In this document: positions 172 to 37,505 of the stretch, piece after piece
Numbering within the stretch: the stretch's first letter is position 1
How the letters are laid out: the number at the start of each line of letters is the position of its first letter
Origin: Chitinophagaceae bacterium
GTDB lineage: Bacteria > Bacteroidota > Bacteroidia > Chitinophagales > Chitinophagaceae
Assembly: GCA_025359725.1 (NCBI GenBank)
Contig: JANYEX010000042.1
Span: forward strand, 1 to 43,932
DNA: 43,932 bases
Direction: 5' to 3'
Notes under the pieces: generated by a model
The model's input: the letters and a program-made list of their open reading frames with translations, nothing else
The model's database searches: none
Told to the model about the DNA's origin: nothing
Translations under genes and position numbers: made by a program

Positions 172-212
172 ATATACGAATATCACCAACATGATATACG
201 AATATCAATTTC
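172..212. repeat. Short 22-bp-period repeat (about 2 units), same family as 17892-18033
   Basis: atatacgaatatc at 172 and again at 194 (22 bp apart); TATCACCAACATGATATACG at 181-200 is identical to 17893-17912. Confidence 0.8.
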
Positions 213-345
213 CGCACCCCAAGAGAGTATCCTGTCAAGCACAATCAACGATTATTGATGCTAGAGGCATTTTGCCTTATAAAGACACGTTAAGAGGTGT
301 CTCTACATTTGGATACCTAGTATTCCTCTGAAAAAGATGTATATA

Positions 346-437
346 GGGTGCATAAAAGTTTTTCGCTTTCAAGACGCATTAATATGCGTCTCTACATTGG
401 TCATCTAATTTATAAACCGAAAAACTTTTATGCACCC
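346..437. repeat. Nested palindromic (MITE/REP-like) element with 20-bp terminal inverted repeats
   Basis: GGGTGCATAAAAGTTTTTCG (346-365) and its exact reverse complement (418-437), enclosing AGACGCAT-TAAT-ATGCGTCT (372-391). Confidence 0.85.
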
Positions 438-488
438 ATGTATGTAACCCGTAGGTTTTTATTACCTCAATAATTTATCTTCGCTGCT

Positions 489-1370
489 ATGATACTATTA
501 GACGGAAAGGTGGCATCGGCTGCTGTAAAAGAAACTATCAAAAAAGAAACTACTGCTTTATTAGAAAATAATAAAAGAGCACCCCACCTAGCCGCTATCC
601 TTGTGGGCAATAATGGTGCAAGCGAAACTTATGTAGCTAGTAAGGTGAAGAACTGTGAAGAAGTGGGTTTCATTTCTTCACTTATTCGTTTTGATAGTAA
701 CATTGACGAAAAAATATTGCTGGAGAAAATAATTGAATTGAATAATGATGCTTCTGTTGATGGCATTTTGGTTCAATTGCCCTTGCCAAAGCATATTAGC
801 GAGGCTAAGGTGATAGAAACCATCTCCCCTAATAAAGATGTTGATGGCTTCCATCCTATTAATGCGGGAAAACTAGTGCAAGGGCTTCCTTCATTTATTC
901 CTGCAACTCCTTATGGTATCATGCTTATGCTAGAGCATTTTAATATTCAGACTAAAGGAACGCATGCGGTGGTTATTGGTCGTAGTAATATTGTAGGCAG
1001 ACCAATGAGTATCCTTTTAAGCAGTAATATTCTTTATGGCAATTGTACGGTAACGATATGTCATTCGCATACGCCAAACCTAAATGAAATTTGTTTGCAA
1101 GGCGATATACTTGTTGCGGCATTGGGTAAGCCTGAATTTGTGAAGGAAGATATGGTTAAACAAGGTGCAGTAATAATAGATGTTGGCATTACGAGGGTTG
1201 CGGATGCTACTGCTAAAAAAGGATTCAGGATAAAAGGCGATGTAGCTTTTAGTGAAGTGTCACCTAAGGCTTCTGCTATCACCCCTGTTCCGGGTGGTGT
1301 GGGACTTATGACTATTGCAGGTTTATTGAAAAATACATTGCAGGCCTACAAGAATAGTTATGAGTTATGA
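489..1370 (+). CDS. folD: Bifunctional methylenetetrahydrofolate dehydrogenase/methenyltetrahydrofolate cyclohydrolase
   Basis: FolD motifs DGILVQLPLPKH, VDGFHPINAGKL, VVIGRSNIVGRPM, ITPVPGGVGLMTIAGLL. Confidence 0.97.
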   Translation: MILLDGKVASAAVKETIKKETTALLENNKRAPHLAAILVGNNGASETYVASKVKNCEEVGFISSLIRFDSNIDEKILLEKIIELNNDASVDGILVQLPLPKHISEAKVIETISPNKDVDGFHPINAGKLVQGLPSFIPATPYGIMLMLEHFNIQTKGTHAVVIGRSNIVGRPMSILLSSNILYGNCTVTICHSHTPNLNEICLQGDILVAALGKPEFVKEDMVKQGAVIIDVGITRVADATAKKGFRIKGDVAFSEVSPKASAITPVPGGVGLMTIAGLLKNTLQAYKNSYEL

Positions 1371-1395
1371 AATATGAAATATGAGTTAGGAGTTA

Positions 1396-3504
1396 TTAGC
1401 TTTCTGCTTCTATAATCTTTTCTACTGCTACTAAATCGCTGAGTTCTACGTTCATGGGTAACATCCCTATTTGTACAATGGCTCGTTTTCCTCGTATCTC
1501 TTTAACCTCACCTACTTGATAGTTCTTTTTTAGCTTTACCAAGGTGCCAATAGAAATAGTAGTTTTAGTCTCTTTGAATTTAGTATCTACCTTCTTGGCA
1601 AGTTTATTTACTACTATCTTCTCAGGACTTTTAAATAATAATGTCTGTAAGTTTTTAATGACAGTATTCTTATCCTCCGCCTTCTTCCAATCAAGCACTA
1701 TTTGCTTAAGCTTACGTTCCATATCTTTTAGGTAAGTTAGCCGTTCCTCTGTTACTTGATTCTGCTGTTTTAGGGTTTCTACTTGTTGACGGTGGCGTTC
1801 TTTGTCCATTACCACCTCCATTTCTTTTTTCAGTTTCTCGTTTTCCCTAATCAGCTTGTGCAAATCTTTCTTTTCAATATCTAGTTGCTGCAAGTCCTGC
1901 TCAGTACGGTTCAAAAGTTTATCTAGCTTAAAATGGTCTTCATCAACCAAATTTCTAGCACGGTTTATCAGGTTCTTTGGCAAGCCAATACGTTCAGCAA
2001 TGGCAAAGGTATAACTACTACCTGGCTTCCCAACCAACAACTTGTACATAGGTAAAAGATGGACTTCATCAAATTGCATTGCCCCATTGATGATACCTTG
2101 TGTTCGATTAGCCATAACCTTCAGGTTAAGATAATGGGTAGTGACAATACCAAAAGCATGACGACGACCAAGTTCCTCCATAATAACTTCCGCAAATGCA
2201 CCACCCAAATTAGGATCGCTACCACTACCCAACTCGTCAATAAAAAATAAGGTCTTTCCATTCGCCACCTCAATAAAGTGTTTCATGTGTTGCAGATGTG
2301 AAGAATAAGTGCTTAGTTCAAATTCTATACTCTGGGTATCGCCAATATGAATGAATAACTGTTTAAATATACCCATTTGTGAGATGGGACTAACGGGAAC
2401 AAGCAATCCGCTTTGAAGCATTACCTGATTGAGTCCAATGGTTTTCATAGTGACGGTTTTACCTCCAGCATTAGGTCCACTGATAACCAATATCCTACTC
2501 TGATCATCAAGGGTAAGTGTAACGGGAATGGTAGTTTTTCCACTTGACTTATTATATAAATATAACAGTGGGTGATAAGCATCTTTCAATTCTAGATGTG
2601 CTTTATCCAACAGGTTAGGTAGGTTGGCATTCATGTCTAAGGCTAGTTTTGCTTTTGCCTTAATAAAATCGAACTCACCAATTAATTCTAGATAACCCAT
2701 CAAAAGGGATGAATAAACAGAAAGTTTTGCGGTTAATGCTCGCAAGATTCGATGCACCTCTCTAATTTCATCATTCTCTAAGGAAAATACTTCATTGTTT
2801 AAAGGGATAGTTTCTTCAGGCTCAATAAATGCAGTCTTCCGGCTATCACTTTCCCCATGCAATATCCCTTTTACATGACGCTTATGTTCGGCAAATACAG
2901 CTACCACTCTCCTACCATTACTAAATCCCTCATCTATCTCAGCTGAATAGCCAGCTTTGTTGAGCTTTGCAACCACCTTTTCGAACATACGGCGCAAATC
3001 ATTTCTACGTTTGTAGAGAGCCATTCTTATACGAGAAAGGTCTTCGCTGGCATTATCTTTTACATTACCAGTTTCATCAATTACTTCATTAATTAATTCA
3101 ATAATTACTTTCTCATAGTACGTGTTTTCAATAACCCTAGCTAATGCTGGATACGCCAAACGCCTTTCCCCATCAAACCAACGAAATATATTATTTGCTT
3201 CTTCTGTCAACCGCCTTAAATGAATCCACTGTTCACTAACAAGCATAGCCCCGGGAATTCCCAGAAGCTTTACGTCCTTTTGTATATTTAAGGTGAAGTC
3301 GTTAGGGAAATACATTGACTGCTGTAAGAGCAATTTATACTCCTGTGTTTGATTTAGCTCAAGCTCTATGTATTCCTTTTTGGTATGTATGCGCAAATTG
3401 GCAGCTTTCTGTTGGGCGAAAACTGTTTTGCAGTGGGTAACTAACAAGCTTTTCACTTTATCAAACTCTAGTTGGTTAGCTGCCGATTCAGGGTACAAAC
3501 GCAT
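1396..3504 (-). CDS. mutS2: MutS2-family DNA mismatch repair/recombination ATPase
   Basis: Walker A GPNAGGKTVTMKTIGL, FIDELGSGSDPNLGGAFAEVI, MutS2-type coiled coil; ends without a recognisable Smr domain. Confidence 0.92.
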   Translation of the reverse strand: MRLYPESAANQLEFDKVKSLLVTHCKTVFAQQKAANLRIHTKKEYIELELNQTQEYKLLLQQSMYFPNDFTLNIQKDVKLLGIPGAMLVSEQWIHLRRLTEEANNIFRWFDGERRLAYPALARVIENTYYEKVIIELINEVIDETGNVKDNASEDLSRIRMALYKRRNDLRRMFEKVVAKLNKAGYSAEIDEGFSNGRRVVAVFAEHKRHVKGILHGESDSRKTAFIEPEETIPLNNEVFSLENDEIREVHRILRALTAKLSVYSSLLMGYLELIGEFDFIKAKAKLALDMNANLPNLLDKAHLELKDAYHPLLYLYNKSSGKTTIPVTLTLDDQSRILVISGPNAGGKTVTMKTIGLNQVMLQSGLLVPVSPISQMGIFKQLFIHIGDTQSIEFELSTYSSHLQHMKHFIEVANGKTLFFIDELGSGSDPNLGGAFAEVIMEELGRRHAFGIVTTHYLNLKVMANRTQGIINGAMQFDEVHLLPMYKLLVGKPGSSYTFAIAERIGLPKNLINRARNLVDEDHFKLDKLLNRTEQDLQQLDIEKKDLHKLIRENEKLKKEMEVVMDKERHRQQVETLKQQNQVTEERLTYLKDMERKLKQIVLDWKKAEDKNTVIKNLQTLLFKSPEKIVVNKLAKKVDTKFKETKTTISIGTLVKLKKNYQVGEVKEIRGKRAIVQIGMLPMNVELSDLVAVEKIIEAES

Positions 3505-3580
3505 ATTATGAGTAACTCATTATTTTATTGAGTGCGCGAAGTTATACCAATGATTGATTGATTTCAATGAAAAAATGATT

Positions 3581-3605
3581 GAAGCCCGCAACATTAGTGG
3601 GTTTC
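3581..3605 (-). terminator. Probable terminator hairpin downstream of map
   Basis: Minus-strand GAAACCCAC-taatgtt-GCGGGCTTC stem with G-U pairs, followed by a T-rich stretch. Confidence 0.5.
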
Positions 3606-3672
3606 ATATATTTTTCTTTTCGTAAACAAACTTCTTTTGGTATAAAGAAATGACTAATAAAGAATTGCATCT

Positions 3673-4503
3673 TTAGAAGCTAATAACTGGTGAGGCAGTT
3701 AGGTTACTATTTGCTTGTTCCGCAGCTTCTATAATACTATAATCAGAAAGAATGAGCGCCTTATTACGCTTAACACACACATCATGTTCAAAATGGACAG
3801 AAGGTTTACCATCTTTAGTTCTAACAGTCCAACCATCACTATCCGTAAAAACATCTTTTGTTCCCAAGTTAATCATAGGCTCAATGGCTAGAACCAAGTT
3901 CTCTTTAAGCTTCATTCCGTTACCCCGTGTACCAAAATTAGGCATCTGAGGATCCTCATGAAGACTCTTTCCAAGCCCATGACCAACTAATTCTCTCACC
4001 ACACCATACTTGTGCTTTCTTTCGGTATGTTCTTGTATTGCAAAAGCAATATCACCTATACGATTGTTGACAACAGCTTTTTCAATTCCTTTATACAAAC
4101 TTTCTTTAGTGACTTTTACTAGCTGTCTAATATCGTCGGTTGTTTCGCCAATAACAAAAGTATAAGCATGATCCCCATGCCATCCATTTAGTATAACACC
4201 TATATCTATACTTACTATGTCGCCGTCTTTAAGAGGAACATCATTTGGAAAACCGTGAACAACTACATCATTCACACTAGCGCAAATGTTGTGAGGATAG
4301 CCTCTATAATTATAAAAGGAAGGAACCGCTTTATGAGCTTTTATAAAATCAGCACATAGTGCATCAATTTGTAAGGTAGTCATTCCAGCCTTTAAGACTT
4401 TGGCAACTTCTGTAAGCGTCTTACTAACAAGAACAGCAGCCTCTTTCATCAGACCAATTTCATAATCTGTCTTATAATAAATAAGATTTTTACCGTGACT
4501 CAT
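3673..4503 (-). CDS. map: Type I methionyl aminopeptidase
   Basis: Motifs YPHNICASVNDVVVHGFP, VSIDIGVILNGWHGDHAYTF, GHGLGKSLHEDPQMPNFG, LAIEPMI. Confidence 0.97.
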   Translation of the reverse strand: MSHGKNLIYYKTDYEIGLMKEAAVLVSKTLTEVAKVLKAGMTTLQIDALCADFIKAHKAVPSFYNYRGYPHNICASVNDVVVHGFPNDVPLKDGDIVSIDIGVILNGWHGDHAYTFVIGETTDDIRQLVKVTKESLYKGIEKAVVNNRIGDIAFAIQEHTERKHKYGVVRELVGHGLGKSLHEDPQMPNFGTRGNGMKLKENLVLAIEPMINLGTKDVFTDSDGWTVRTKDGKPSVHFEHDVCVKRNKALILSDYSIIEAAEQANSNLTASPVISF

Positions 4504-4521
4504 GTTGCAATAAGTTTAAAT

Positions 4522-4551
4522 AAAAACACCTGTCAGTACTACTAACAGGTG
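4522..4551 (-). terminator. Terminator/attenuator-like hairpin between secY and map
   Basis: Minus strand CACCTGT...ACAGGTG followed by TTTTTATTT. Confidence 0.6.
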
Positions 4552-4579
4552 CTTTATATCAAAAAAAGGTTTGAATTAA

Positions 4580-5962
4580 TTAGATTGTAGTAGTTGGCGT
4601 ACTGATGCTTTGTTGTCTCCCTTGAACGCGACCGCTAGACATTAAACCATCATATTGACGCATTAATAGATAAGTTTCAATTTGTTGTAGTGTATCTAAT
4701 ACAACACCAACCATGATTAATAAGCTTGTGCCACCAAAAAATGTACTGAAAGATTGAGTAACACCCAAACGTTGTGCAAATCCTGGCATAATACCTACGA
4801 TAGCTAAAAATATAGCACCAGGCAGTGTAATCTTATCCATTATCGCACCGATATAATCAGCGGTAGGCTCACCAGGCTTAACACCAGGGACAAAACCATT
4901 ATTACGCTTTAAATCTTCAGCAATTTGCTTGGGATTAAATATCAAGGCAGTATAGAGGAATGTAAATCCTATAACCATGACAGAATAAATAACCATGTAC
5001 CAAGGGTTGCTATGGTCGCTAAATATCCTTACAAAACCTTTGGCAGAATCCAAATTGGTAAAAGAAACAAGCGTAGGTAGGAACATTATGGCCTGAGCAA
5101 AGATGATTGGCATTACACCCGCACTATTCACCTTTACAGGCAAAAATTGTCTAGCACCACCAAATTGTCTATTGCCAATTATTTGCTTCGCATAATTAAC
5201 AGGTATTTTACGGACACCTTGTACTAAAATAATCAATCCCATTATGATTGTAACCAAAATAGCTACTTCTATTAGGAATATGAGCAAACCACCACCACCT
5301 TTTTCACTCTTTGCTGTAAACTCTTGCAGGATAGATTGAGGTAAACGAGCTAAGATACCTACCATGATGATTATAGAAGTACCATTGCCAAGTCCTTTAT
5401 CTTGAATCTTTTCTCCTAGCCACATTACAAACAATGTTCCAGCAGAAAGAGTAATTATTGTTGAAAATGCAAAAAATGGTTGATATGAAGGTATAAGAGC
5501 TTCCGCATAACCAGGGCTTTTTAGATATGCAACGTAGGCACCAGCTTGAAACATTGTAACTACGATAGTTAAATACCTAGTCCATTGATTAATCTTCTTT
5601 CTGCCGCTTTCACCTTCCTTTTGAACTTTCTGCAATTGAGGAATTAGAATTGTCATTAGCTGCATAAAAATAGATGCAGATATATAAGGCATTATACCTA
5701 ACGCCAAGATTGATGCCTGCGAAAAGGCACCACCAGCAAATGTATCAAAAAGACCCAACAAACCATTTTTAGAGCTACCAGCTTTCGCAGCTTCGAGTAA
5801 ATTTGGATTTATTCCTGGTAGAGTAATTTGAGTACCTAACCTGTATGTTAGGACGAAAGCAAGCGTCACGATAATTTTATTACGTAACTCTTCTATCGTC
5901 CAAATATTTTTTAAAGTATCTATAAATTTTTTCACTTTAATCGCTTGATATGAATAATACAC
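4580..5962 (-). CDS. secY: Preprotein translocase subunit SecY (alternative GTG start at 5935)
   Basis: SecY core LPGINPN, LGIMPYISASIFMQLM, GNGTSIIIMVGI; VKKFIDTLKNIW suggests the internal GTG start. Confidence 0.97.
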   Translation of the reverse strand: MYYSYQAIKVKKFIDTLKNIWTIEELRNKIIVTLAFVLTYRLGTQITLPGINPNLLEAAKAGSSKNGLLGLFDTFAGGAFSQASILALGIMPYISASIFMQLMTILIPQLQKVQKEGESGRKKINQWTRYLTIVVTMFQAGAYVAYLKSPGYAEALIPSYQPFFAFSTIITLSAGTLFVMWLGEKIQDKGLGNGTSIIIMVGILARLPQSILQEFTAKSEKGGGGLLIFLIEVAILVTIIMGLIILVQGVRKIPVNYAKQIIGNRQFGGARQFLPVKVNSAGVMPIIFAQAIMFLPTLVSFTNLDSAKGFVRIFSDHSNPWYMVIYSVMVIGFTFLYTALIFNPKQIAEDLKRNNGFVPGVKPGEPTADYIGAIMDKITLPGAIFLAIVGIMPGFAQRLGVTQSFSTFFGGTSLLIMVGVVLDTLQQIETYLLMRQYDGLMSSGRVQGRQQSISTPTTTI

Positions 5963-5974
5963 CTTAAATACAAA

Positions 5975-6001
5975 GGACGCATCATATTATTTGATGCGCC
6001 C
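5975..6001 (-). terminator. Hairpin between rplO and secY (terminator/attenuator candidate)
   Basis: Minus strand GGGCGCATCA-aataata-TGATGCGTCC then TTTGTATTT; 10-bp stem with one G-U. Confidence 0.5.
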
Positions 6002-6016
6002 TGCAAAGTAAGTAAA

Positions 6017-6466
6017 TCAATTTAAAATTTCGACACTTCCACCTAAAGATTCAATTGTCTCTTTGGCTTTTGCACTTATAGCGTTTACTTTGAATAAAAG
6101 TTTAGATTTTAATTCACCATTTCCTAATACCTTGACTTTATCAGTTTTCGAAATTAAGCCGTTGGAATACAGACTTTCTATAGAAAATTCAGCAAAAGCA
6201 TACTTTTCATTTAGTTGCTCAATTTGTCCTAAATTGAAAACATTATATTCTAACCTATCTGGATTTTTGAAACCACGCTTTGGTATACGACGTTGAATTG
6301 GCATCTGACCACCTTCATGCGCATTTTTTCTTTGATACCCTGCTCTTTGTTGGCTACCTTTATTACCTTTCGTAGATGTACCACCCTTTCCACTTGCTTC
6401 ACCACGACCTAATCTCTTCTCTTTATGTGTGGATCCTTCTGCTGGTTTTAATGTATGTAATTTCAT
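6017..6466 (-). CDS. rplO: 50S ribosomal protein L15 (start trimmed to the ATG at 6466)
   Basis: MKLHTLKPAEGSTHKEKRLGRGEASGKGGTSTKGNKG... Confidence 0.97.
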   Translation of the reverse strand: MKLHTLKPAEGSTHKEKRLGRGEASGKGGTSTKGNKGSQQRAGYQRKNAHEGGQMPIQRRIPKRGFKNPDRLEYNVFNLGQIEQLNEKYAFAEFSIESLYSNGLISKTDKVKVLGNGELKSKLLFKVNAISAKAKETIESLGGSVEILN

Positions 6467-6512
6467 ATTAGTGATTTTGTACTTACGGGGTATCACCCCT
6501 CGCTAATTAATA

Positions 6513-6815
6513 TTAAAGTTCTTGACTTGGCTCTTCTGTTGTATTTATATCAACAATAGTTTCTACTTTAGGAGTCTTCTTCTTTTTTTCAGAAATAGTT
6601 ACCTCGTCAGGGACAACAATGGATTCAATAATTTTATCTTCAATAACGTCTACTTTAAGTAAATGAGAAACCTTCTTAACCATTCCCAGTATCTGCGGAG
6701 TAGCTTCCAGTTCTCTATGAGCGTTAAGTTTTTTTAAACCTAGTGCAACAAGAGTTCTCTTTTGTCTTTCTGACCTATCAATACCACTCTTAATTTGCGT
6801 TATTTTTATATTCAT
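6513..6815 (-). CDS. rpmD: 50S ribosomal protein L30 with C-terminal extension
   Basis: IKITQIKSGIDRSERQKRTLVALGLKKLNA...; position between rpsE and rplO; about 35-residue acidic/basic tail. Confidence 0.95.
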   Translation of the reverse strand: MNIKITQIKSGIDRSERQKRTLVALGLKKLNAHRELEATPQILGMVKKVSHLLKVDVIEDKIIESIVVPDEVTISEKKKKTPKVETIVDINTTEEPSQEL

Positions 6816-6848
6816 GATTAGCTATTTAAAAATAAATCACTATTAATT

Positions 6849-7370
6849 TTAACCGTTAAATACTTTGCTCAACTTGATACTACGAGTTTTAGAAATCTCA
6901 ATTGGTTCACGAAGCATTGAAAGAGCCTTAATAGTTGCTTTGACAACATTATGAGGATTTGCAGAACCCAAATTTTTAGCCAACACGTCGGTAATACCTG
7001 CACTTTCAAGAACTGCTCTCATACTACCACCAGCAATTACACCAGCACCATGAGCAGCAGGCTTGATTAAAACTTTAGCAGCCCCTGCTTTTGCAAGCTG
7101 TTCATGAGGAATTGTACCGTGTGAAATTGGAACCTTAACAAGGTTTTTCTTGGCATCTTCAACTCCTTTGATTATGGCTTCTTGAACTTCCTTGGCTTTT
7201 CCTAAACCATGTCCTACAATCCCAGCATCATTACCAACAACAACTAAAGCAGAAAAACTAAAAGTACGACCACCTTTGGTTGTTTTAACTACACGGTTAA
7301 TAGCAACAACTTTATCTTTTAGTTCTAACTCACCTCCAGCTTTTACCTTCAAATCAATTGGCTTAGACAT
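6849..7370 (-). CDS. rpsE: 30S ribosomal protein S5
   Basis: [31 protein letters not shown]. Confidence 0.98.
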
Positions 7371-7394
7371 AAACCTCTAATATTATTTAATTAA

Positions 7395-7748
7395 TTAAAA
7401 TTGTAATCCACCTTCTCTTGCACCATCTGCAACAGCTTTTATTCGACCATGATATAAATTACCACCTCTATCGAATACGCAAACCTCAATTCCAAATTCT
7501 TTCGCTTTTAATGCAATTGAAGCACCAACCAGCTTAGACTTTTCAATTTTTGGAATCTTTTGAGCAACAATATCTTTTTCACGAGAAGAAGATGCAGCTA
7601 TAGTAACTCCATTCTCGTCATCGATAAGTTGAGCATATATGTCAGAATTACTTCTAAAGACAGATAAACGAGGTTTGATTGAAGTTCCAGAAACCTTTTT
7701 TCTGATACGAAACCTAATCTTTTGTCTTTGTTCTAACTTAGTGTTCAT
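7395..7748 (-). CDS. rplR: 50S ribosomal protein L18
   Basis: RLSVFRSNSDIYAQLIDD, FDRGGNLYHGRIKAVADGAREGGLQF. Confidence 0.97.
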   Translation of the reverse strand: MNTKLEQRQKIRFRIRKKVSGTSIKPRLSVFRSNSDIYAQLIDDENGVTIAASSSREKDIVAQKIPKIEKSKLVGASIALKAKEFGIEVCVFDRGGNLYHGRIKAVADGAREGGLQF

Positions 7749-7776
7749 TATATATATATTTTATAATACAGTATTA

Positions 7777-8331
7777 TTATTTACCAGCAGCCTTACCAGC
7801 TTTTCTTCTCAATACTTCACCAACATACTTAACACCCTTACCCTTATACGGCTCTGGTTTACGTAAACTTCTTAATTTGGCTGCTACCTGACCAATCAAT
7901 TGCTTATCTATACCTTCAAGAGCAATAACTGGATTTTTACCTTTTTCAGTGACTGTAGTTACTTTAATTTCATTAGGAATTTCGAAAATTATGTTATGCG
8001 AATACCCTAAAGCTAAGTCAATTATATTACCAACATTTGATGCTTTATAACCAACACCAACTAATTCTAATTCTCTTTTATAACCAGTAGTAACACCAGT
8101 AACTAAATTATTAATTAGAGCTCTGTAAAGACCATGCATAGCACGGTGACGAATCTGGTCAGTAGGACGAGTGATAATTAACTCATTACCTACAATTTCA
8201 GGTTTAATATCCCTATCAATTGTCTGCTTCAGAACACCTTTTGGTCCCTTTACAGATACTGTGTTATCATTTGCAACCTCAATTGTTACTCCAGATGGAA
8301 TTAAAATGGGTTTTTTTCCTATACGAGACAT
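7777..8331 (-). CDS. rplF: 50S ribosomal protein L6
   Basis: MSRIGKKPILIPSGVTI, EPYKGKGVKYVGEVLRRKAGKAAGK. Confidence 0.98.
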   Translation of the reverse strand: MSRIGKKPILIPSGVTIEVANDNTVSVKGPKGVLKQTIDRDIKPEIVGNELIITRPTDQIRHRAMHGLYRALINNLVTGVTTGYKRELELVGVGYKASNVGNIIDLALGYSHNIIFEIPNEIKVTTVTEKGKNPVIALEGIDKQLIGQVAAKLRSLRKPEPYKGKGVKYVGEVLRRKAGKAAGK

Positions 8332-8393
8332 AGTAACTAATTTATTATTGAACTACTCAATTTTATTTTAAATACAAATGAGCTTAAAGTAAT

Positions 8394-8792: not shown

Positions 8793-8838
8793 ATATATAT
8801 ATTAATCTATTAAAAAAATCTTGTAATTATAATAAATA

Positions 8839-9108
8839 CTACCAGCTTGCCTTTTTAATTCCTGGTATTTTACCATTCAAAGCCATATCTCTAAATATAA
8901 CTCGGGATATGCCAAAATATCTCATATATCCTTTGGGACGACCAGTCAATTGACAACGATTTTTCAATCTAACAGGAGAAGAATTTTTTGGAAGTAAATC
9001 CAATCCAGCATAGTCACCAGCAGCTTTTAAGGTTTCTCTTTTTTTTGCAAACTTTTCGACCATTTTTTCACGCTTTCTTTGTCTAGCCTTAATTGATTCT
9101 TTTGCCAT
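8839..9108 (-). CDS. rpsN: 30S ribosomal protein S14 (zinc-independent form)
   Basis: [40 protein letters not shown], 89 aa. Confidence 0.97.
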
Positions 9109-9120
9109 TTTATTTAATTT

Positions 9121-12750: not shown

Positions 12751-13020
12751 TTATTTTTTTGAACCTGAGTGACCTCTAAAATTTCTAGTAGGGGAAAACT
12801 CGCCCAACTTATGACCTACCATAAACTCTGTAACATAGACAGGAATAAATTTATTCCCATTATGAACCGCAAATGTGTGCCCTACAAAATCAGGAGTTAT
12901 TGTACTTCTCCTACTCCAAGTTTTAATTACACCTTTTTTGCTTTTACCTTCATTTATGTTAAGCACCTTTACATCAAGATTAGCATCAACATAAGGACCT
13001 TTTTTTATTGAACGACCCAT
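12751..13020 (-). CDS. rpsS: 30S ribosomal protein S19
   Basis: [30 protein letters not shown]. Confidence 0.98.
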
Positions 13021-13053
13021 ATTAGAGTTTTATATTACTATATAAATAATCAA

Positions 13054-13893
13054 TTACTTCGCAAGCTTCTTACCATCTCTACGTTGGATAATTAATTTGC
13101 TACTTCCCTTAGTTCTAGATCTTGTCTTCTCACCCTTAGCATACTTTCCAGTTCTACTTCTTGGATGTCCACCTGAAGCACGACCTTCACCACCACCCAT
13201 CGGGTGATCTACTGGGTTCATTGCAACACCTCTTGTTCTAGGTGTAATACCTTTCCAACGATTTACACCAGCTTTACCTGCCTTTTCTAGGTTATGATCA
13301 CTATTTGAAACAACTCCAATTGTAGCAAAAGAATTAATCAAAAGCTTACGTAACTCGCCACTAGGCATTTTAAGTACTGCGTATTTTTCTTCTTTATTCG
13401 CCAACTGTGCAGAAGTACCAGCACTTCTAACCAATTTTCCACCCTGACCAGGTTGCAATTCAATGTTGTGAATCATAGTACCCAAAGGCATATTTTTCAT
13501 TTGTAATGCATTACCAATTTCAGGTGCTACTTGATTTCCAGAGATGACTTTAGCTCCAACTTGTAAACCTTGTGGTGCTATTATATATCTCTTTTCGCCA
13601 TCAGTGTATTGCAAAAGTGCAATAAAAGCAGTTCTATTTGGATCATATTCTATAGAAAGAACCGTTGCTTCGATATCAAACTTATTACGTTTGAAATCAA
13701 TAATACGATATTGCTTTTTGTGACCACCACCAATGTATCTCATTGAACGACGACCTTGAGCATTACGACCACCAGTCTTCTTGATTGGTTCTAACAAACT
13801 CTTTTCTGGTTTATTAGTTGTAATCTCAGCATAAGCATTTCCAATTCTCCAGCGTGTTCCAGCTGTCATTGGTTTGTATTTCTTTAATGCCAT
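13054..13893 (-). CDS. rplB: 50S ribosomal protein L2
   Basis: [46 protein letters not shown]. Confidence 0.98.
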
Positions 13894-17310: not shown

Positions 17311-17539
17311 ATTCTTTTTACGCAGGGTTGCCAATCCGTTTTTTTAGGTCATAAGTAAGGATAAAGGGGTAACCCACAAATTTGTTTTTTTCCATAAAGT
17401 AATTGCTTTTACCTTATTAGGGAACCTCTAAAAACCAATTTTTAATAAATTCCGTGTTGAATTTATGTATAAATTAACCATGTTGATGAAAAATTCAAAT
17501 CACAAGAACAGTCATTTGCATTTAAGATAGCAGAATAAA

Positions 17540-17626
17540 ATGATGAAGGCGATGTATATCACCAGTTTTATTCAAATTATATGTATCATCAGTGGGTTAA
17601 TGGCTTTGGTTAAGTTTATGAAATAG
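17540..17626 (+). CDS. Candidate 28-aa hydrophobic mini-protein MMKAMYITSFIQIICIISGLMALVKFMK
   Basis: ATG-to-TAG frame read directly; single predicted TM segment; below the ORF-track length cutoff; no homology evidence. Confidence 0.25.
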   Translation: MMKAMYITSFIQIICIISGLMALVKFMK

Positions 17627-17838
17627 CTACGTTAGAATAGTAAATAAGGTTTTGATTATTCAAAATACCTATAGAGTTCAAAAGCTTTATAGGTCTTTTT
17701 TCTAGGGTACAATTTGAGATGAATATAAACCGCCGTAAAACATTCGTCATCCTATCTTACGCTTGCCACATTAGGTTTATGCCTATCTTACAGCAAAAAG
17801 AAACAAGGGATAATTTATTGTAAAGTATCATTTTAATA

Positions 17839-17869
17839 GAGGCTGCCCCGTTTGTGGGTAGCCTTTTTT
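17839..17869 (+). terminator. Intrinsic terminator in the GH5-rng convergent gap
   Basis: GGCTGCCCC-gtttgt-GGGTAGCC followed by TTTTTT. Confidence 0.7.
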
Positions 17870-17891
17870 GTATCTTTTATACAACAAATTT

Positions 17892-18033
17892 CTATCACCA
17901 ACATGATATACGGCTATCATCAACATGATAGGCAGCTATCACCAACATGATAGGCGGCTATCATCAACATGATAAGCGGCTATCATCAACATGATAGGCG
18001 GCTATCACCAACATGATAGGCGGCTATCATCTT
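17892..18033. repeat. 22-bp tandem repeat array, about 6.5 units of CTATCAYCAACATGATAGGCGG
   Basis: CTATCA starts at 17892, 17914, 17936, 17958, 17980, 18002 and a truncated 18024; each full unit contains a TATCA/TGATA dyad. Confidence 0.95.
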
Positions 18034-18282
18034 CTGCATCCTCCCAGTGGCTATTTTACACCCAATATATCACTATAGTCAAGTACTACCAAACCAGTTC
18101 ATAAGAAGCAATGAGTAGTATACGCACAAGTAAATGATTACTGAAACTAACAGAATAGTGAAAAGAAAATTTGGGTATTAGCAACTGTGAGCGTATGACA
18201 GAGAATCCGCCAGCATTAGTGATTACAGCAAGTGGCGAGTATCCTGTAGGAGATGCCCGCTTTTTTTGTAATTAATAAAAAC

Positions 18283-22658: not shown

Positions 22659-22706
22659 ACGAATATGTTACAATAAGGTAAAAATAGACTTCAATTTAAA
22701 ACCAAT

Positions 22707-22811
22707 AGATCTAAAGTTTTTATGAATACATTCAAAGTTTCTGCCAGTACATCTAAAGCTATTTCCATTACACTTCAAGCTACTGACAAAAACTTTAGAT
22801 CTGGCGGGTTG
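22707..22811. repeat. Degenerate 21-bp-period repeats bracketed by a 15-bp perfect inverted repeat
   Basis: AGATCTAAAGTTTTT (22707-22721) / AAAAACTTTAGATCT (22788-22802); related units at 22707, 22728, 22749, 22770. Confidence 0.8.
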
Positions 22812-28069: not shown

Positions 28070-28112
28070 AAAAATTAGATAGTTCTTTTTCAAAAAGAAC
28101 TATCTAATTTTT
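28070..28112. terminator. Perfect palindromic stem (21-bp arms), terminator-like
   Basis: AAAAATTAGATAGTTCTTTTT (28070-28090), C, AAAAAGAACTATCTAATTTTT (28092-28112). Confidence 0.85.
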
Positions 28113-28280
28113 GACGGAGAGGTACTTCCCTGACACGGAGATGTATAAACGTGTGACAAAAAGATACTTTTATTAGACGGAGGTATATAAACTTGAGACG
28201 GAGAGGTACTTCCCTGACGCGGAGATATATAAACGTTGGACGAAGAGATACTTTTATGAAACGGAAGTATATAAACCCCA
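28113..28280. repeat. Two-copy 84-bp higher-order repeat, each copy four subunits of about 21 bp (19+23+21+21)
   Basis: Subunit starts 28113, 28132, 28155, 28176 repeated at 28197, 28216, 28239, 28260. Confidence 0.88.
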
Positions 28281-28433
28281 GAACATCAATTCTAGCCACA
28301 GAATATTCTCTATTCAATGCTATAAATTGCAGGGTATCACTTGCATCATAAATAGGGTTTAGTCTAATTTTTGAATAGTCTATCTTAAAAGCCATATTTG
28401 GCTTACTTTTATTCCTACATAAATTTTATTTAC

Positions 28434-30581: not shown

Positions 30582-30728
30582 GAAAGAGTTTAAAATTGTA
30601 CTGGGAAGTTTTAAAGTTAATACGCTTTCATTAAAGAGAATACTGCTTTATATAAGAAGTAACCTGACGAACAAAACAACATCGGAATAGGTTAAGCATT
30701 TCTTTTATTAGCCATACACATTTTAATA

Positions 30729-30736
30729 TAGTTTTG
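30729..30736 (+). promoter_or_regulatory. Possible Bacteroidota -7 element (TAnnTTTG) next to a start codon
   Basis: TAGTTTTG ends 4 nt before ATG at 30741; no convincing -33 TTTG. Confidence 0.25.
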
Positions 30737-30740
30737 CGCT

Positions 30741-31706
30741 ATGCATAGTTTCCAAGAGTTGGCAAAGAAGTTTATTAATCGTTTTGATGTACCTCATTTT
30801 CCAAAACACCCCGCCACCCTTTACGAACCCGGCGATTACTTTTTAACCATTGGTGGCAAACGTATCAGACCTGTTATGTGCCTGATGGGCAATGAACTCT
30901 TTGGCGACATTACCGAAGATGCCTACAGCGTAGCAATAGCCATAGAGCTGTTTCATAACTTTACTTTGGTACATGATGATATTATGGATGCTGCTCCTTT
31001 GCGCCGTGGTATGGAAACTGTACACACCAAATATGGCCCTAGCGTGGCACTGCTTTGTGGCGATGTAATGATTATAAAAGCTTATGATTACATCAATAAA
31101 ATAAACATAGAACATATCCGGGCGGTGATGGAGTTGTTCAACAAGACCGCTACCGAAGTGTGCGAAGGGCAACAACTAGATATGGATTTCGAGAAGCAGG
31201 AAACAGTTTCCTTTGATGAATACCTGCACATGATTTCCCTTAAAACATCTGTGTTATTGGCTGCCTCATTAAAGCTTGGTGCCATAATAGGTGGTGCTGG
31301 CGAGGCTAATTGCAACAACATCTACAACTTCGGTCTTAACCTAGGACTAGCTTTTCAGATTCAGGATGATTATTTAGATGCCTTCGGCGATCCTGCCAAG
31401 TTTGGTAAGGATGTAGGTGGCGATATCCGTCAGAATAAAAAGACTTTTCTTCTATTACATGCCCTAGAGGTCGCTACCCCCCAGCAGTTGACTACCATAA
31501 AAGAACTATTAAACACTGATAGTGCCGATAAGGTAGAAAGGATGCTCGAGATATTCAAGGCATGTAACGTAGCCGCATGGGCAAATCAATTAAAGGAACA
31601 ATACCTTGCAAAAGCATATAAATACTTGGATGACATCGCCGTTACTGCTACCCGCAAACACGAACTAGCCAAGCTTGCAGAGTACCTAATTCAACGCCAG
31701 TCGTAA
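30741..31706 (+). CDS. Polyprenyl (isoprenyl) diphosphate synthase
   Basis: Aspartate motifs LVHDDIMDAAPLRRG and FQIQDDYLDAFGDP. Confidence 0.95.
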   Translation: MHSFQELAKKFINRFDVPHFPKHPATLYEPGDYFLTIGGKRIRPVMCLMGNELFGDITEDAYSVAIAIELFHNFTLVHDDIMDAAPLRRGMETVHTKYGPSVALLCGDVMIIKAYDYINKINIEHIRAVMELFNKTATEVCEGQQLDMDFEKQETVSFDEYLHMISLKTSVLLAASLKLGAIIGGAGEANCNNIYNFGLNLGLAFQIQDDYLDAFGDPAKFGKDVGGDIRQNKKTFLLLHALEVATPQQLTTIKELLNTDSADKVERMLEIFKACNVAAWANQLKEQYLAKAYKYLDDIAVTATRKHELAKLAEYLIQRQS

Positions 31707-31762
31707 ATCATAAATTGTAATTCGTAAGTTGTGTGTATTACTTACAACTAATCACTTACTAC

Positions 31763-32635
31763 TTACGACTCTCTTCTCGCTGCTTCCCAACCAATTATTG
31801 CCATCTTTCTTTCTGTTCCCCAGCGGTATTCGCCAATGCCTCCCACACTTTTTATTACCCTATGGCAAGGGATAATAAACCCCACAGGGTTAGATCCTAT
31901 GGCACTACCCACGGCTCTTTGTGCAGTAGGATTCTGTATATCCTCGGCTATGTTGCTATAAGATTTAAGCCCTCCTTCAGGTATCTTCAACAAGGCTTCC
32001 CACACTTTCAACTGAAACGGCGTTCCCTTCAGGTGCAGTTTTATCTGCGCAGCATCGTCTATCTTATGCCCAAAGAATTGTTTTATCAATTGATGATAGC
32101 CCGTCTCTTCCTCCACAATGGTGGCATTAACCCACAATTGCTTCAGTTCCTCCAACGATTCTTTGCTCGATTCATTATAAAAAAACAAATTACATATCCC
32201 CACCTCCGTCGAAGCAACTAAGTAATTACCAAAGGCACTCTCCCCATAGCTATACTTGATAATCAGGTTCTTACCCCCGTTCTTGTATTCGCCCGGCGTC
32301 ATCCCTTCTATTTTCACAAACAGATCGTGCAGCCTTCCCGTGCCAGACAACCCCGTTTCGTAGGCGGCATCATACACCGAAGTGCCGCTAGTTTTCAATA
32401 CTTCCTTGGCATATTCCACACTTAGGTAATGCAGAAATTTCTTAGGGCCAACCCCCGCCCAATCCGTAAACATCCGCTGAAAATGGAAGGGGCTAATATG
32501 CACCGCCACCGCCACTTCCTCCAGCGAAGGCTGCTGCTGCATGTTATCTTTTATGTACGTAAGCGCATCCGCTATCCTATCATAATCTTGCATACCAATC
32601 TGTTTAATCGAGTAAAGTTGCGCTGTATCCGCCAA
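31763..32635 (-). CDS. AraC-type HTH fused to methylated-DNA-[protein]-cysteine S-methyltransferase (Ada-like)
   Basis: AraC HTH (SLEEVAVAVHISPFHFQRMF) then OGT active site VGFIIPCHRVIKSVGGIGEYRWG. Confidence 0.93.
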   Translation of the reverse strand: MADTAQLYSIKQIGMQDYDRIADALTYIKDNMQQQPSLEEVAVAVHISPFHFQRMFTDWAGVGPKKFLHYLSVEYAKEVLKTSGTSVYDAAYETGLSGTGRLHDLFVKIEGMTPGEYKNGGKNLIIKYSYGESAFGNYLVASTEVGICNLFFYNESSKESLEELKQLWVNATIVEEETGYHQLIKQFFGHKIDDAAQIKLHLKGTPFQLKVWEALLKIPEGGLKSYSNIAEDIQNPTAQRAVGSAIGSNPVGFIIPCHRVIKSVGGIGEYRWGTERKMAIIGWEAARRES

Positions 32636-32785
32636 TTAAAAAACCCGATTCTTGCTTTATCCCCCCTCATCCCTTTATTCCGCAACAGCAATATCAACAC
32701 TGGTTTTAATCACAAACCCCCTCATTTACACTCTTCCAACAAAGCCAAAATATTTCATACTTTATATTTTATATTTCTCTTTTGG

Positions 32786-32880
32786 GCGTATCCCTTCGGG
32801 TCGGGCTTTTCGTTCCAATCTTTTTGCCCCCAGAAAAAAAAGGGGGACAAAAAGTATTTCCACTACAATCCCTTACGCAG
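32786..32880. repeat. Palindromic intergenic element with CTTTTTGCCCCC / GGGGGACAAAAAG core
   Basis: Imperfect inverted core plus flanking ttccaatc / ctacaatccc; resembles dispersed intergenic elements of Bacteroidota. Confidence 0.5.
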
Positions 32881-33037
32881 CAGGCAAACAGGTTTACAAT
32901 AAACAGTCAGCGTTTATAACAATCCCCGTCATATCGAGGCACGAGATATCTAACCGAATAATATTGGCAATACAAAATTGATGCAATCAAATTTCTCATG
33001 CCTTACAACAACGTGAATTAAAGGCGTCTCTTATTTG

Positions 33038-33056
33038 CCAACTTTTCAGAAGTTGG
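33038..33056. repeat. Small perfect inverted repeat CCAACTT-ttcag-AAGTTGG
   Basis: Arms 33038-33044 and 33050-33056. Confidence 0.75.
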
Positions 33057-33337
33057 TAAATCTACAGAAACACATTCTTTACGCAAGATTTGGCACCCAC
33101 CGTCATTCCCATTTTTTTCTGGTGCGACAGATGAACCATTCGAAAAGACGGCAATGAATTTTGCCTTTGTTAGTGTTCCCAACTCGCCATTGTTGTGTCT
33201 TTTGACCAACAACAATCAATAAAAATCCAATTGATAATTTCTAAACGAATATATACGAAACCACCTTATTAGTTGTCGGTTAGAAGAAAGAGTGTCAACC
33301 ATAAAACCTTAATAGAAGGGTATTGCTACTTTAAAGC

Positions 33338-33620
33338 TTTCCATTGCACTGGAAAACTTTTCTGTTGTACTAGAAAACATTTCCGTTGCACTGGAAAACA
33401 TTTCTGTTGTACTGGAAAACATTTCCGTTGCACTGGAAAACATTTCCGTTGCACTGGAAAACATTTCCGTTGCACTGGAAAACATTTCCGTTGCACTGGA
33501 AAACATTTCCGTTGCACTGGAAAATATTTCCGTTGCACTGGAAAACATTTCCGTTGCACTGGAAAACATTTCCGTTGCACTGGAAAACATTTCCGTTGCA
33601 CTGGAAAATATTTCCGTGGT
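33338..33620. repeat. 21-bp tandem repeat array, 13 full units plus a partial, consensus TTTCCGTTGCACTGGAAAACA
   Basis: Unit starts every 21 bp from 33338 to 33590, partial at 33611; most units carry a TTTCC/GGAAA dyad. Confidence 0.98.
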
Positions 33621-33766
33621 AATAACCCAAATGATTTTAACAATTGACAGGCTAAAGAAAGGTAGAATTTAACATTGAAAGTAGTCTATTTTAAAACGGC
33701 ACAAATTGCTGGGATATACTTTACAACCTATTCGATAAAGTTTTCATTCTATTTTAGCTTACAATC

Positions 33767-34645
33767 CTATACCCTTCGCACATCTACCGAAACAGAAAGC
33801 CTATGTGGGCCGCTACTAAGGATAACGCCTTTTAGTGGGGTAATGTCAAAATAATCCCTGCCCCAACCAATAGTAATGTGTTGCTCGGTGGGTACGGTAT
33901 TGTTGGTTGGGTCGAAATCGAGCCAGCCAATATTGGGAACGTAAACAGAAAACCAAGCATGGGAAGCATCTACGCCAACCAATTTTTCTACACCTGGCGG
34001 GGGAAGCGTTTCTATATATCCGCTTACATAACGAGCGGGCAACCCAACAGAACGAAGGCACGCAATGCCCACATGGGCAAAATCCTGACACACTCCCTTA
34101 CGCGTTTTCATCACCTCTGATATGGGCGTAGCAACGGTGGTAAAACCGGGTTTGAACTGAAAGTCTTTGTAAATACGTTCCATCAAGTTATAGATGGCTT
34201 CGTAAACTGGCCTGCCTGGGGTAAAAGATTGCAAGGCATAAGTAGTAATACCCGCCTCGAAAGTGGTCGCTTCTGTTTCGGGAACATACTGGCGAGCATC
34301 AATATGGTCTAACAGTGGCTGGTATAATTGCAACCTCGCATCCTCCCACGAAATCTTTCCGTAGGTATCTATAGCCTGTTTTTGTTCAACAGCTTTTCTT
34401 TCTATCTCAGAAGAAACAGTTACGGTTAGGGATTTATGTTCGTGCTGAATGGCAAAATAGATAACCTTATTACCAAAGAAATCTTCAAACTCATTAATTA
34501 CATCAGGCACAGGATCTATTACGATGGTAGATTTCTTACACACCTGCCCATTGGCATTTCGGGGAATTAACCGCGCCATGTTATGGCACAAACTGATGGG
34601 TTCGTAATAGATGTATTGTGTTTTATGAACAATTTTATAATTCAT
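33767..34645 (-). CDS. Transglutaminase-like cysteine protease-fold protein
   Basis: KGVCQDFAHVGIACLRSVGLPARYVSGYIET, DASHAWFSVYVPNIGWLDFDPTN (Cys-His-Asp). Confidence 0.92.
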   Translation of the reverse strand: MNYKIVHKTQYIYYEPISLCHNMARLIPRNANGQVCKKSTIVIDPVPDVINEFEDFFGNKVIYFAIQHEHKSLTVTVSSEIERKAVEQKQAIDTYGKISWEDARLQLYQPLLDHIDARQYVPETEATTFEAGITTYALQSFTPGRPVYEAIYNLMERIYKDFQFKPGFTTVATPISEVMKTRKGVCQDFAHVGIACLRSVGLPARYVSGYIETLPPPGVEKLVGVDASHAWFSVYVPNIGWLDFDPTNNTVPTEQHITIGWGRDYFDITPLKGVILSSGPHRLSVSVDVRRV

Positions 34646-34656
34646 GGTAGTATCTA

Positions 34657-37281
34657 TTATCCCGCAGTAAATAATTGCCTATGCGGCTGGGTATGTTTGA
34701 AATAAGTTTTAGAAATAGCATTGGGGATGGTAGCCAGATAAGAATACATATCTGCCAGGAAGTTATCCAAGTTTTCGTAAGTAGCCATCGTATCATCTAG
34801 TGTTGAAAGAAAATCTTTATCCGCATTCTTCAACTGATTGTACAGTTCGGTGGTAAGGCGCACATGTTCAGGAACGCTACCTGTGTTCTGTGTATTCGGC
34901 ATACTTTCAAGATAAGTTTTAATCCTCACCACCTGATAAATAAGCGAACGAGGGTTATCGGGGTCAAGTAACATCAACTCCAAAACGAGGGGCAACTGTA
35001 GATGAACCTTATATTTATAACGATAGTTTACTAAAGAATCATTGCTGCGCAATACGGCTTCCTGCAGATTGTAGGCAACTTCCTCGTCGTGTTTATTTAC
35101 CAAAGTAGCCCTCAGCATGTTTACCAAAAGGATACTAGACTCTAGCTTACGACCCGTATTTAATAAAGACCAGCCTTGCTCTCTAGAGATACTTTCTCGG
35201 TTTAGTCCAATAAATGCAACCATCAAAGTGATGAGGTCATCCATCATGGTAATCATCTTAAAATGGGTAAGGTGTGTAGTAGATGCCTCTACCCAAAGCT
35301 CTTCCATACTGCGTAACACCCGCCAAGTATCTGTACTCCAGTGGTCACGCACGGCATTAACCGCCCTACTAAACAAGGCAAAGTTGTAAGTGAGCCCCCC
35401 ATTTTTATTAGGATCGAACATCATTTCTGACAACTCCTTCCACGGGTTATCGAGCTTTGCCTTACCTGTTTCACCAATAAAACCAGGATAGGTAAACGTG
35501 TAATGGGTTAATGCCATCAAGAGGGTATGTTCTGTTTCTCGATTAGAGTCTAACTGAATACGATTCCCTTCGGTGATGGCTTGCATGACGGTACGCTGAA
35601 ACCGCGCATTACCCAAAAACCTATCGGCATAACGCCCCACCCAAAACAAGTTTTCGGCAGTATGACTAGGCAATACATTCTTATAATTGAGAACATGGGC
35701 TACCTGTAGCTGCTGACTTTGCAGTTGTAACCTCGATTGAAACTGAGACTGTGACTGGGATTGCGATTGTATGCCAAAAGAATTTTTAGTCAGTTGTTGT
35801 ATCTGGTCAGTTTCGTTAGACTCTGGATTAATAATCCATGTGTCCTTGCTCAATCCCCCCAACTGATTAGAAATAACCATGTTGGAAGAATCGCTAGAGG
35901 TTCGGGTAAGTCCGCCCTTCATTACGGTATAGCTATCTTTATTACTCACCAGAAAACTTCTGAACAAAGCATTCTTAGGTTCTACTTTCGTATCTACAAA
36001 TGAGGGCGTAGAAGAAAACGTAACCTTCTCTTGACCAACGTATAAATAGGGGTGTGTTTTAATTTGCTCCTTTAGTTCCTCAATTCTTTTGGCAGAAATA
36101 GTAGAGCCATCAATAGAAGTACTGACAGATGAATCGCGATATATCTTCTTAATTACCAAGGTAGAAATATTCTCCAGTACATATTTCATTTCGCTTGGTT
36201 GCCCACACCACCATGAGGCGATGTTGGGAAGTATGAGTGGTTTATCGAAATAATACTTAGCAATAGCAGGTAAGAAAGGCATGATACCAGGGTTCTCCAA
36301 TATGCCACTACCCAATGGGTTTGCAATCCTTACATTTCCACTACGAACCGCTTGCAACAAACCTGCTACGCCTAATTGCGAATCTTCTTTTAGTTCCAAG
36401 GGGTCACAATAATTATCATCCACACGTCGCAAAATCACATCCACTCTTTCCAATCCGCCTACCGTTTTAAGCCATACATAATTATCTATTACCATAAGGT
36501 CATCGCCCTGCACAAGGGTATAACCGAGGTAGGAAGAAAGGTATGAATGCTCAAAATAAGTTTCGTTTCTAGGCCCAGGAGTAAGTATCACAATACGAGG
36601 TTGATCTTGCCGTGGCATCATTTCCGTAAGAGCATTCCGTAGGTCGGTAAAGTAGGGAGAGAGCTGTTTTACCTTCAATCCTTCAAAAAACTCTGGCAGA
36701 ATACGCGCCATTGCCATCCTGTTTTCCAAAGCATATCCCGAACCAGAAGGGGCTTGTGTTCTATCGTTCAACACCCATATCTTCCCATCGGGACTACGAG
36801 CAATATCCGCAGAATATAAAACCAATTGATGGTTACCAGTAAGTTGTATGCCCGCGCACTGCCTAAGGAAGCCTGGGTGGTTGTACACCAATTCTATAGG
36901 TAGTAATCCATTCTTTATCAGCTGTTGTGCGCCGTAAATATCTTTTAAAATCAGGTTAAATAACTCTGCACGCTGTATCAATCCAGCTTCTATAGTTGTC
37001 CATTCCTGCTTGCTTATCAAAAAAGGAATTACATCTAAGTTCCATGGGCGGTTAAGTCCCAATGGGTCACCATAAATGTTGTAGGTAACTCCATTTTCCT
37101 TTAAAAATCTGAGTATTGCATGCCTTCTTTCTTGTAATTCTTCGGAACCAAGCTGTCCAAATGATTGAAAAAAGGTTTGCCAATAAGGTCGCAGGTTGCC
37201 ATCATCGCCTAATAATTCATTGTATGAATAATTAGAACTGAAATAATTTTGAAAAAGAGATGCCTGCCGGGTAGCTATCAT
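34657..37281 (-). CDS. Fused circularly permuted ATP-grasp (type 2) + alpha-E (DUF403) protein
   Basis: N-terminal DGNLRPYW...VTYNIYGDPLGLNRPWNLDVIPFLI, ILTPGPRNETYFEHSYLSSYLGYTLVQGDDL; C-terminal SHTAENLFWVGRYADR; SQ-rich linker. Confidence 0.92.
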   Translation of the reverse strand: MIATRQASLFQNYFSSNYSYNELLGDDGNLRPYWQTFFQSFGQLGSEELQERRHAILRFLKENGVTYNIYGDPLGLNRPWNLDVIPFLISKQEWTTIEAGLIQRAELFNLILKDIYGAQQLIKNGLLPIELVYNHPGFLRQCAGIQLTGNHQLVLYSADIARSPDGKIWVLNDRTQAPSGSGYALENRMAMARILPEFFEGLKVKQLSPYFTDLRNALTEMMPRQDQPRIVILTPGPRNETYFEHSYLSSYLGYTLVQGDDLMVIDNYVWLKTVGGLERVDVILRRVDDNYCDPLELKEDSQLGVAGLLQAVRSGNVRIANPLGSGILENPGIMPFLPAIAKYYFDKPLILPNIASWWCGQPSEMKYVLENISTLVIKKIYRDSSVSTSIDGSTISAKRIEELKEQIKTHPYLYVGQEKVTFSSTPSFVDTKVEPKNALFRSFLVSNKDSYTVMKGGLTRTSSDSSNMVISNQLGGLSKDTWIINPESNETDQIQQLTKNSFGIQSQSQSQSQFQSRLQLQSQQLQVAHVLNYKNVLPSHTAENLFWVGRYADRFLGNARFQRTVMQAITEGNRIQLDSNRETEHTLLMALTHYTFTYPGFIGETGKAKLDNPWKELSEMMFDPNKNGGLTYNFALFSRAVNAVRDHWSTDTWRVLRSMEELWVEASTTHLTHFKMITMMDDLITLMVAFIGLNRESISREQGWSLLNTGRKLESSILLVNMLRATLVNKHDEEVAYNLQEAVLRSNDSLVNYRYKYKVHLQLPLVLELMLLDPDNPRSLIYQVVRIKTYLESMPNTQNTGSVPEHVRLTTELYNQLKNADKDFLSTLDDTMATYENLDNFLADMYSYLATIPNAISKTYFKHTQPHRQLFTAG

Positions 37282-37442
37282 TAAAATAGTTCTAAGTAAA
37301 ACAAAAGCAAATATTCGGGTTGCTCGGAAAATTTAAAAATAGGGAATAATAGGTAAAAAAAGCTTTTTGTTATTGATTTTTCTTGTAAAAAGTTACTGTT
37401 GTATAGAAAGTATTCAATTTATTGAATAGATTTTATTCAATC

Positions 37443-37505
37443 TAGCAGACCAGCAACAGGACTTTGCATACCTGCAATTGGAAGTTGCAAACCTGCGTTG
37501 TATCA
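37443..37505. repeat. Degenerate 21-bp tandem repeat, 3 units
   Basis: Units at 37443, 37464, 37485 (tagcagaccagcaacaggact / ttgcatacctgcaattggaag / ttgcaaacctgcgttgtatca). Confidence 0.7.

Follow-up and report, generated by a model that had tools for sequence, protein, structure and literature searches.

Tandem-repeat families usually have a common sequence by descent and differ in the length of their units. The closest known relative of the repeats described here is the BrickBuilt miniature inverted-repeat transposable element (MITE) of Porphyromonas gingivalis, which consists of a 23-nt direct tandem repeat with a leader, a tail and short inverted ends, and occurs at 19 scattered loci, the repeat number ranging from 1 to 22.8 (PMC4596501). 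In the Bacteroidetes, genes of subclass 2.6 of the REP-associated tyrosine transposases (RAYTs; REP, repetitive extragenic palindromic sequence) are flanked by atypical secondary structures that have copies elsewhere in the genome (PMC6006769). We analysed a stretch of 43,932 nucleotides from a Chitinophagaceae bacterium (GCA_025359725.1, contig JANYEX010000042.1; the window hereafter), which is contig 224 of a 3.36-Mb draft genome in 334 contigs (G000), and in which an earlier note had pointed to six gaps between genes carrying short repeats of period 21 or 22 bp. The unit of these arrays keeps a length of 21 bp (occasionally 22, or 41/42 made of two alternating units), its sequence is free save for a tendency to dyad symmetry, and the observation is genus-wide and not confined to one window. 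We tentatively regard the arrays as one class of length-locked, dyad-bearing intergenic minisatellite, part of which is tied to miniature elements of the REP or MITE type, and the step of which may be set by a dyad-recognising protein.

Periods were surveyed in 1.08 Mb (about 0.89 Mb coding and 0.19 Mb non-coding) from stretches not picked for repeats, covering six species of one genus of freshwater Chitinophagaceae (G000, G003, G005, G006, G010 and G012), and stretches of other genera of the family, including G014, G015 and G017, were sampled for comparison. All six genomes are drafts in which many arrays lie at contig ends, so that array lengths are under-estimated. Period 21, which corresponds to two helical turns of DNA (42 bp being four), was found in 50 of the 122 non-coding arrays, period 22 in five, and periods 20 and 23 in none; 11 more arrays had period 42 and six had period 41. 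The next commonest periods were 14 (19 arrays) and 7 (12 arrays), and no array had a one-turn or three-turn period (10/11 or 31/32). Arrays of period 20–23 numbered 55 in the non-coding portion versus 11 in the coding portion, which amounts to a density about 23-fold higher in non-coding DNA. Counting multiples of the period, the density was 189–493 arrays per Mb of non-coding DNA across the six species versus 72 per Mb in 74 loci of other genera and zero in three further genera (G014, G015 and G017); with pooled numbers, this is about 390 versus about 57 per Mb, a roughly seven-fold excess. The six species carry about 70 arrays per Mb overall, occupying about 5–9% of their non-coding DNA. Tandem, divergent and convergent gaps are occupied in proportion to their length, and a promoter or terminator role deduced from gene context was rejected on this basis. 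The sharp excess at 21 bp in six species and its restriction to gaps support the proposal of the earlier note that a common length with unshared sequence reflects a common process; neither of the outcomes that the note named as refuting it, a period distribution without an excess at 21–22 bp or arrays equally common in coding sequence, was obtained. Repeats of 7 and 14 bp (e.g., TCATATT, TAATCAC) are likewise in excess, though less strongly, in non-coding DNA across the genus and in other Chitinophagaceae.

Within the window, arrays were detected with Tandem Repeats Finder and compared with dinucleotide-preserving shuffles of each gap. The 22 shuffled gaps yielded a mean of 0.08 arrays of period 20–23 per window, whereas the real gaps contain arrays of 22 bp at 17892, 21 bp at 22701, 20 bp at 30611 and 21 bp at 33338, and in addition a 42-bp array at 28113. 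Three of the six stretches first noted are strong arrays, all on the plus strand: 17892–18031 (22-bp unit CTATCAYCAACATGATAGGCGG, 6.3 copies, 91% identity, higher-order period 66 bp), 28113–28280 (21-bp array with a 42/84-bp higher-order repeat, detected as 28113–28276 at 42/84 bp with the 21-bp sub-unit visible, and 70% identical to a related array at L024:18546-18669), and 33338–33617 (21-bp unit TTTCCGTTGCACTGGAAAACA, 13.3 copies, 94%), the unit of which is also arrayed on six further contigs. The remaining three, likewise on the plus strand, are weak and hold about 1.5 to 3 diverged copies: 22701–22811 (21 bp, 2.8 units, 67%), 37443–37505 (21 bp, about 2.4 units), and 172–244, a remnant of about 1.5 22-bp units (TATCACCAACATGATATACGAA) plus right flank, which is 84.9% identical over 73 bp to the array end and right flank of another copy (L027:13068-13139). 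At lag 21/22, each of the three exceeds shuffles of the gap in which it lies (p=0.003 in every case); at any lag from 8 to 59 the excess is marginal, with p=0.016 for the stretches near 22707 and 37443 and 0.05 for 172–212. The six gaps stand as repeats, but 172–212 and the array at 17892 are of one unit family, and the former is not an independent array. A weak 20-bp pair at 30611–30649 was missing from the first list. Open reading frames (ORFs) running over the arrays (28090–28395 and 33273–33647) are possible because 21 is divisible by three, and were not counted as genes.

The units mostly differ between loci, as the earlier note had stated, and the 54 arrays sampled fell into 48 unrelated unit families when grouped by BLAST. 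Over a background of 0.25, the 21-bp arrays have a mean self-identity of 0.66 at lag 21, rising to 0.73 at lag 42, with only 0.28–0.29 at lags 7 and 14 and nothing at 10 or 11. An origin from 7-bp microsatellites was rejected because a 7/14 sub-period is not clear. Nor are the arrays of the CRISPR type, as the units are contiguous and lack unique spacers of constant size (cas genes were not searched for). Compared with units whose columns had been shuffled, dyad symmetry was significant (p<0.05) in 31 of 56 arrays, or in 15 when scored on consensus letters alone, and the consensus columns that pair in the dyad were more conserved than the remaining columns in 41 of the 56. Some cores (GGGAACAYGTTCC, GACTCAGGTGAGTC, GTACAACGTTGTAC) are nearly constant while the linkers vary. 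The excess of dyads belongs to the set as a whole; those in the units at 17892 and 33338 are visible but individually non-significant (p=0.11 and 0.12).

What had been overlooked is that arrays with different units have dispersed flanking modules in common (REP-type sequences, MITE ends and a tail). Arrays with the same unit often have hundreds of flanking bases in common, and some dispersed flanks are found beside arrays of different units as well. Left of the array at 33338 lie two modules on the plus strand: module A (33101–33162), which is REP-like and dispersed (many copies read GTCATTCCC...GGACGGGAAT), and module B (33153–33225), a REP sequence whose full copies have an array of 21, 41, 42 or 63 bp on the same, downstream side; together (33095–33225) they have 39 matches in the genome. 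In G000, each of the 10 full copies of module B, at nine loci, is followed at a distance of 9–374 bp by an array of 21, 41 or 63 bp, with none upstream, and these arrays belong to about seven unit families. Of 25 full copies in the other species, 13 have an array within 500 bp downstream and two upstream, against a background of 5–17% per side, with the caveat that related loci are not wholly independent in these polarity counts. Dyadic arrays lack an orientation of their own, so the fixed side must derive from the REP. Between module B and the array are short inverted copies of B, which make it a REPIN (REP doublet forming a hairpin), and in G003 a module B REP pair comes after a RAYT gene (NF047646, 87 bits; cut-off 80). 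Inverted pairs of a shared short palindrome with a RAYT gene alongside characterise module B only and not the arrays, and the description of RAYT subclass 2.6 fits module B. At L364:1259-1386, a 63-bp array has the module B REP itself as its unit; a REP sequence can thus be amplified in steps of three times 21. Just left of module A, a Flavo-1 RNA (RF01705, 59 bits) was matched at 32795–32890 on the minus strand, overlapping an unassigned ORF at 32429–32902.

On its other side, the array at 33338 is abutted by a tail module (33618–33674, minus strand), and all seven copies of this tail in G000 lie beside 21-bp repeats with differing units, e.g., the TTTCC array of the window, an TTTCTCCGCCCTCTAAGAAAC array (L178:12494-12750) and divergent repeats in L266 and L268 (the latter by eye only). 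Several of these units, with GAAA..TTTC cores, may be distantly related, so that the tail shows fast turnover of units and not fully independent units. A possible 60-codon ORF with the start MAKDQFEISDSLFNILVN lies beside the array in L178 (about 12890–13090, plus strand).

The array at 17892 is part of a larger element, the TATCA element, with a left module (17485–17891, plus strand; two terminator-like hairpins and a 28-codon ORF) that is 76% identical to G000:C167:12476-12876, itself leading into a TATCA array, and a right module (18032–18240, plus strand) that is 92% identical to the sequence right of the 11-copy TATCA array in L025. To the left of the element lies a dispersed intergenic repeat (17418–17499) with nine other genome copies of 81–90% identity. 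The TATCA unit recurs as arrays of 4–11 copies on four other contigs, and paralogues with a 92% identical right flank have 6 versus 11 units, i.e., the copies differ by whole units. The 28-codon ORF (MMKAMYITSFIQIICIISGLMALVKFMK, 17540–17626, plus strand) has a paralogue at L027:12539 in which start, stop and hydrophobic pattern are kept and differences per codon position are 5/2/11; judged from these sequences, it looks like a real gene for a small membrane peptide, followed by the terminator-like hairpins. One such hairpin stands ahead of the array at 17892, and a near-perfect, terminator-like hairpin of 43 bp (28070–28112) ends exactly where the array at 28113 begins.

A MITE-like case is an element of about 704 bp in G005, present in about 40 copies, that is bounded by terminal inverted repeats (TIRs; TTAATTCTACTTTGACAGATT) and contains an internal GACTCA array of period 21 bp; L153/L163 are perhaps bounded likewise. 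One copy is flanked by CTA on both sides, a possible target-site duplication, and the others are not; the copies have diverged. A 105-bp dispersed repeat (87–94% identity) in the G003/G002 loci L314–L318 (about 687–793) is related to the leader of the G005 element, and in L316 a 22-bp array lies 155 bp downstream of it. The CCAGAAATCATTTCTGG-unit arrays of G003 and G006 have common flanks, but were rejected as syntenic because their neighbouring genes have no blastp match.

We suggest that some arrays are carried in, or lie beside, REPs/REPINs of a Y1 (HUH) REP-associated transposase, TIR-bearing MITE-like elements and other dispersed modules; that arrays may expand and homogenise in place by whole units, through slippage or unequal exchange, which the higher-order periods of 42, 63, 66 and 84 bp fit; and that the elements would spread together with their array. 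The 21-bp step itself may be set at the level of DNA, not by RNA structure, through a dyad-recognising protein covering about two turns, since two turns and dyads suggest a dimeric DNA-level activity; the simplest candidate would be a protein of the mobile elements that processes or binds DNA strands. Several results weigh against this account. A dyad-centred alignment of 45 arrays gave no common half-site motif and no strong consensus, and one protein site common to all arrays is rejected on these grounds. Indels are not depleted relative to substitutions in the arrays (about 242 indel bases versus 2460 mismatches, which in a rough comparison is not below the 0.045 gap events per substitution of the G005 element alignment taken whole), and we do not claim selection on spacing. 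A flanking inverted repeat above the 95% null was found in 7 of 57 arrays and not in the other 50, so that the proposition that every array is a MITE is rejected. An autonomous partner of the G005 element was not found in the draft assembly, where no inward TIR pair 1–5 kb apart occurs among the matches listed. In the unbiased sample, a known module lies within 500 bp of only a minority of arrays (of 34 arrays in G000, three are near module B and two near module A; none in the other sampled stretches), and a link to mobile elements was not seen for the majority of arrays.

It is conceivable, although we consider it rather unlikely, that the arrays are ordinary slippage minisatellites, with 21 bp being a mutational bias of the genus and the link to mobile elements arising only since both gather in large gaps. 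The higher-order periods and the copy-number differences fit this explanation, as do the weaker excesses at 7, 14 and 21 bp in other genera of the family and the missing indel deficit. However, no reason is known for a bias to exactly 21 over 20, 23 or 18 bp, a 7- or 14-bp sub-period is almost nil, and both the dyads and the fixed side of the REP are left unexplained.

An organisation of phased protein-binding arrays, in which palindromic operators for a dimeric DNA-binding or nucleoid protein would lie on one face of the helix and regulate genes or organise the chromosome, is similarly doubtful. It accords with spacings of two and four turns, with the enrichment of dyads, with dyad columns more conserved than linkers and with the near-constant cores, and the two-turn spacing for a nucleoid protein suggested by the earlier note is possible to that extent. 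However, 48 unrelated units would call for many proteins or for one without sequence preference, and the arrays have neither a common half-site nor a bias to promoters or divergent gaps; one- and three-turn periods are absent and indels are not in deficit.

A more specific mechanism, which we think unlikely, is a process of the genus devoted to setting the length, in which an HUH (REP-associated) or other DNA-processing enzyme nicks at a REP-like or dyad sequence and copies fixed two-turn steps to one side, turning unrelated local sequence into 21-bp dyad arrays. The polarity would be accounted for if a transposase nicked a strand at the REP and copied to one side, which is speculation at this stage; if true, bacteria would have a mechanism that makes minisatellites in fixed steps.

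That the repeats are transcribed and fold, unit by unit or as a whole array, into hairpins of conserved size, the recurring RNA hairpin of the earlier note, is very improbable. The inverted symmetry within units, the terminator-like hairpins near some arrays and the finding that 16 of 67 arrays are inverted repeats as a whole beyond shuffled unit order (p<=0.05) would agree with it. However, paired positions change together at about the rate that independence predicts (29 vs 21.7; 71 vs 68.5), so that the dyad symmetry is not that of RNA stems; opposed G.T and A.C bases are equally frequent (510 vs 504), i.e., without strand asymmetry, and no Rfam family was matched by the arrays. On the lack of both covariation and strand asymmetry, units as RNA hairpins were rejected. 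Finally, an artefact of metagenome assembly, or of searching where repeats are, is hardly credible even with six draft genomes and many arrays ending contigs, because the same peak appears on contigs unselected for repeats in six separate genomes and not in shuffles, and contig ends at arrays imply under-estimated lengths, not invented arrays.

Around the RNase G gene (rng), no empty site was readable, as relatives match the first 60 bp or so only and have other neighbours; the RNase G relatives of 89–93% identity all come from Chitinophagaceae metagenome-assembled genomes. In three relatives, a 15-bp repeat (AAGAAAGAAACGTCAT) about 165–190 bp upstream of the RNase G gene (L070:9791-9830, L073:2314-2389, L074:9786-9825) is possibly a conserved 5' leader.

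Compared with known systems, the arrays resemble BrickBuilt in being intergenic direct tandem repeats of about two turns in the Bacteroidota and, for some of them, in lying inside a miniature element. BrickBuilt has one unit sequence in one species, whereas we found 48 families in 54 arrays, about 70 arrays per Mb, a lock at 21 bp that spans unrelated units and mostly no detectable terminal inverted repeats; the arrays are not BrickBuilt members in the sense of a single common 23-nt unit. Module B is like REP/REPIN sequences with their RAYT (TnpA-REP) in being a dispersed intergenic inverted doublet beside a transposase gene (PMC3116915, PMC3733652, PMC6006769), whereas the 21-bp arrays are head-to-tail direct repeats of many units without a common REP sequence. 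The repeats of archaeal Borgs are likewise pervasive, unrelated in sequence, of independent origin and limited to one kind of genome, but they are perfect, variable in unit length, A-enriched and about half of them lie in genes, whereas the arrays here are imperfect, 21 bp long, dyad-bearing and intergenic (PMC9879509). The prokaryotic satellites of Subirana and Messeguer, as far as the accessible part of that report goes, are similar in forming intergenic families scattered through some bacterial genomes, but lengths in multiples of three from genes and families of 12–16 nt are described there, and that part does not mention a 21-bp class of unrelated units (PMC6749651). We found no published description of such a class in the literature, of which most subscription papers were not covered. 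As length is common here and sequence is not, the arrays single out the problem of how the unit length of a minisatellite is set, in bacteria, where it can be tested, and they join two known facts, the MITE minisatellites of Bacteroidota and REPs with transposases, in one architecture of fixed polarity.

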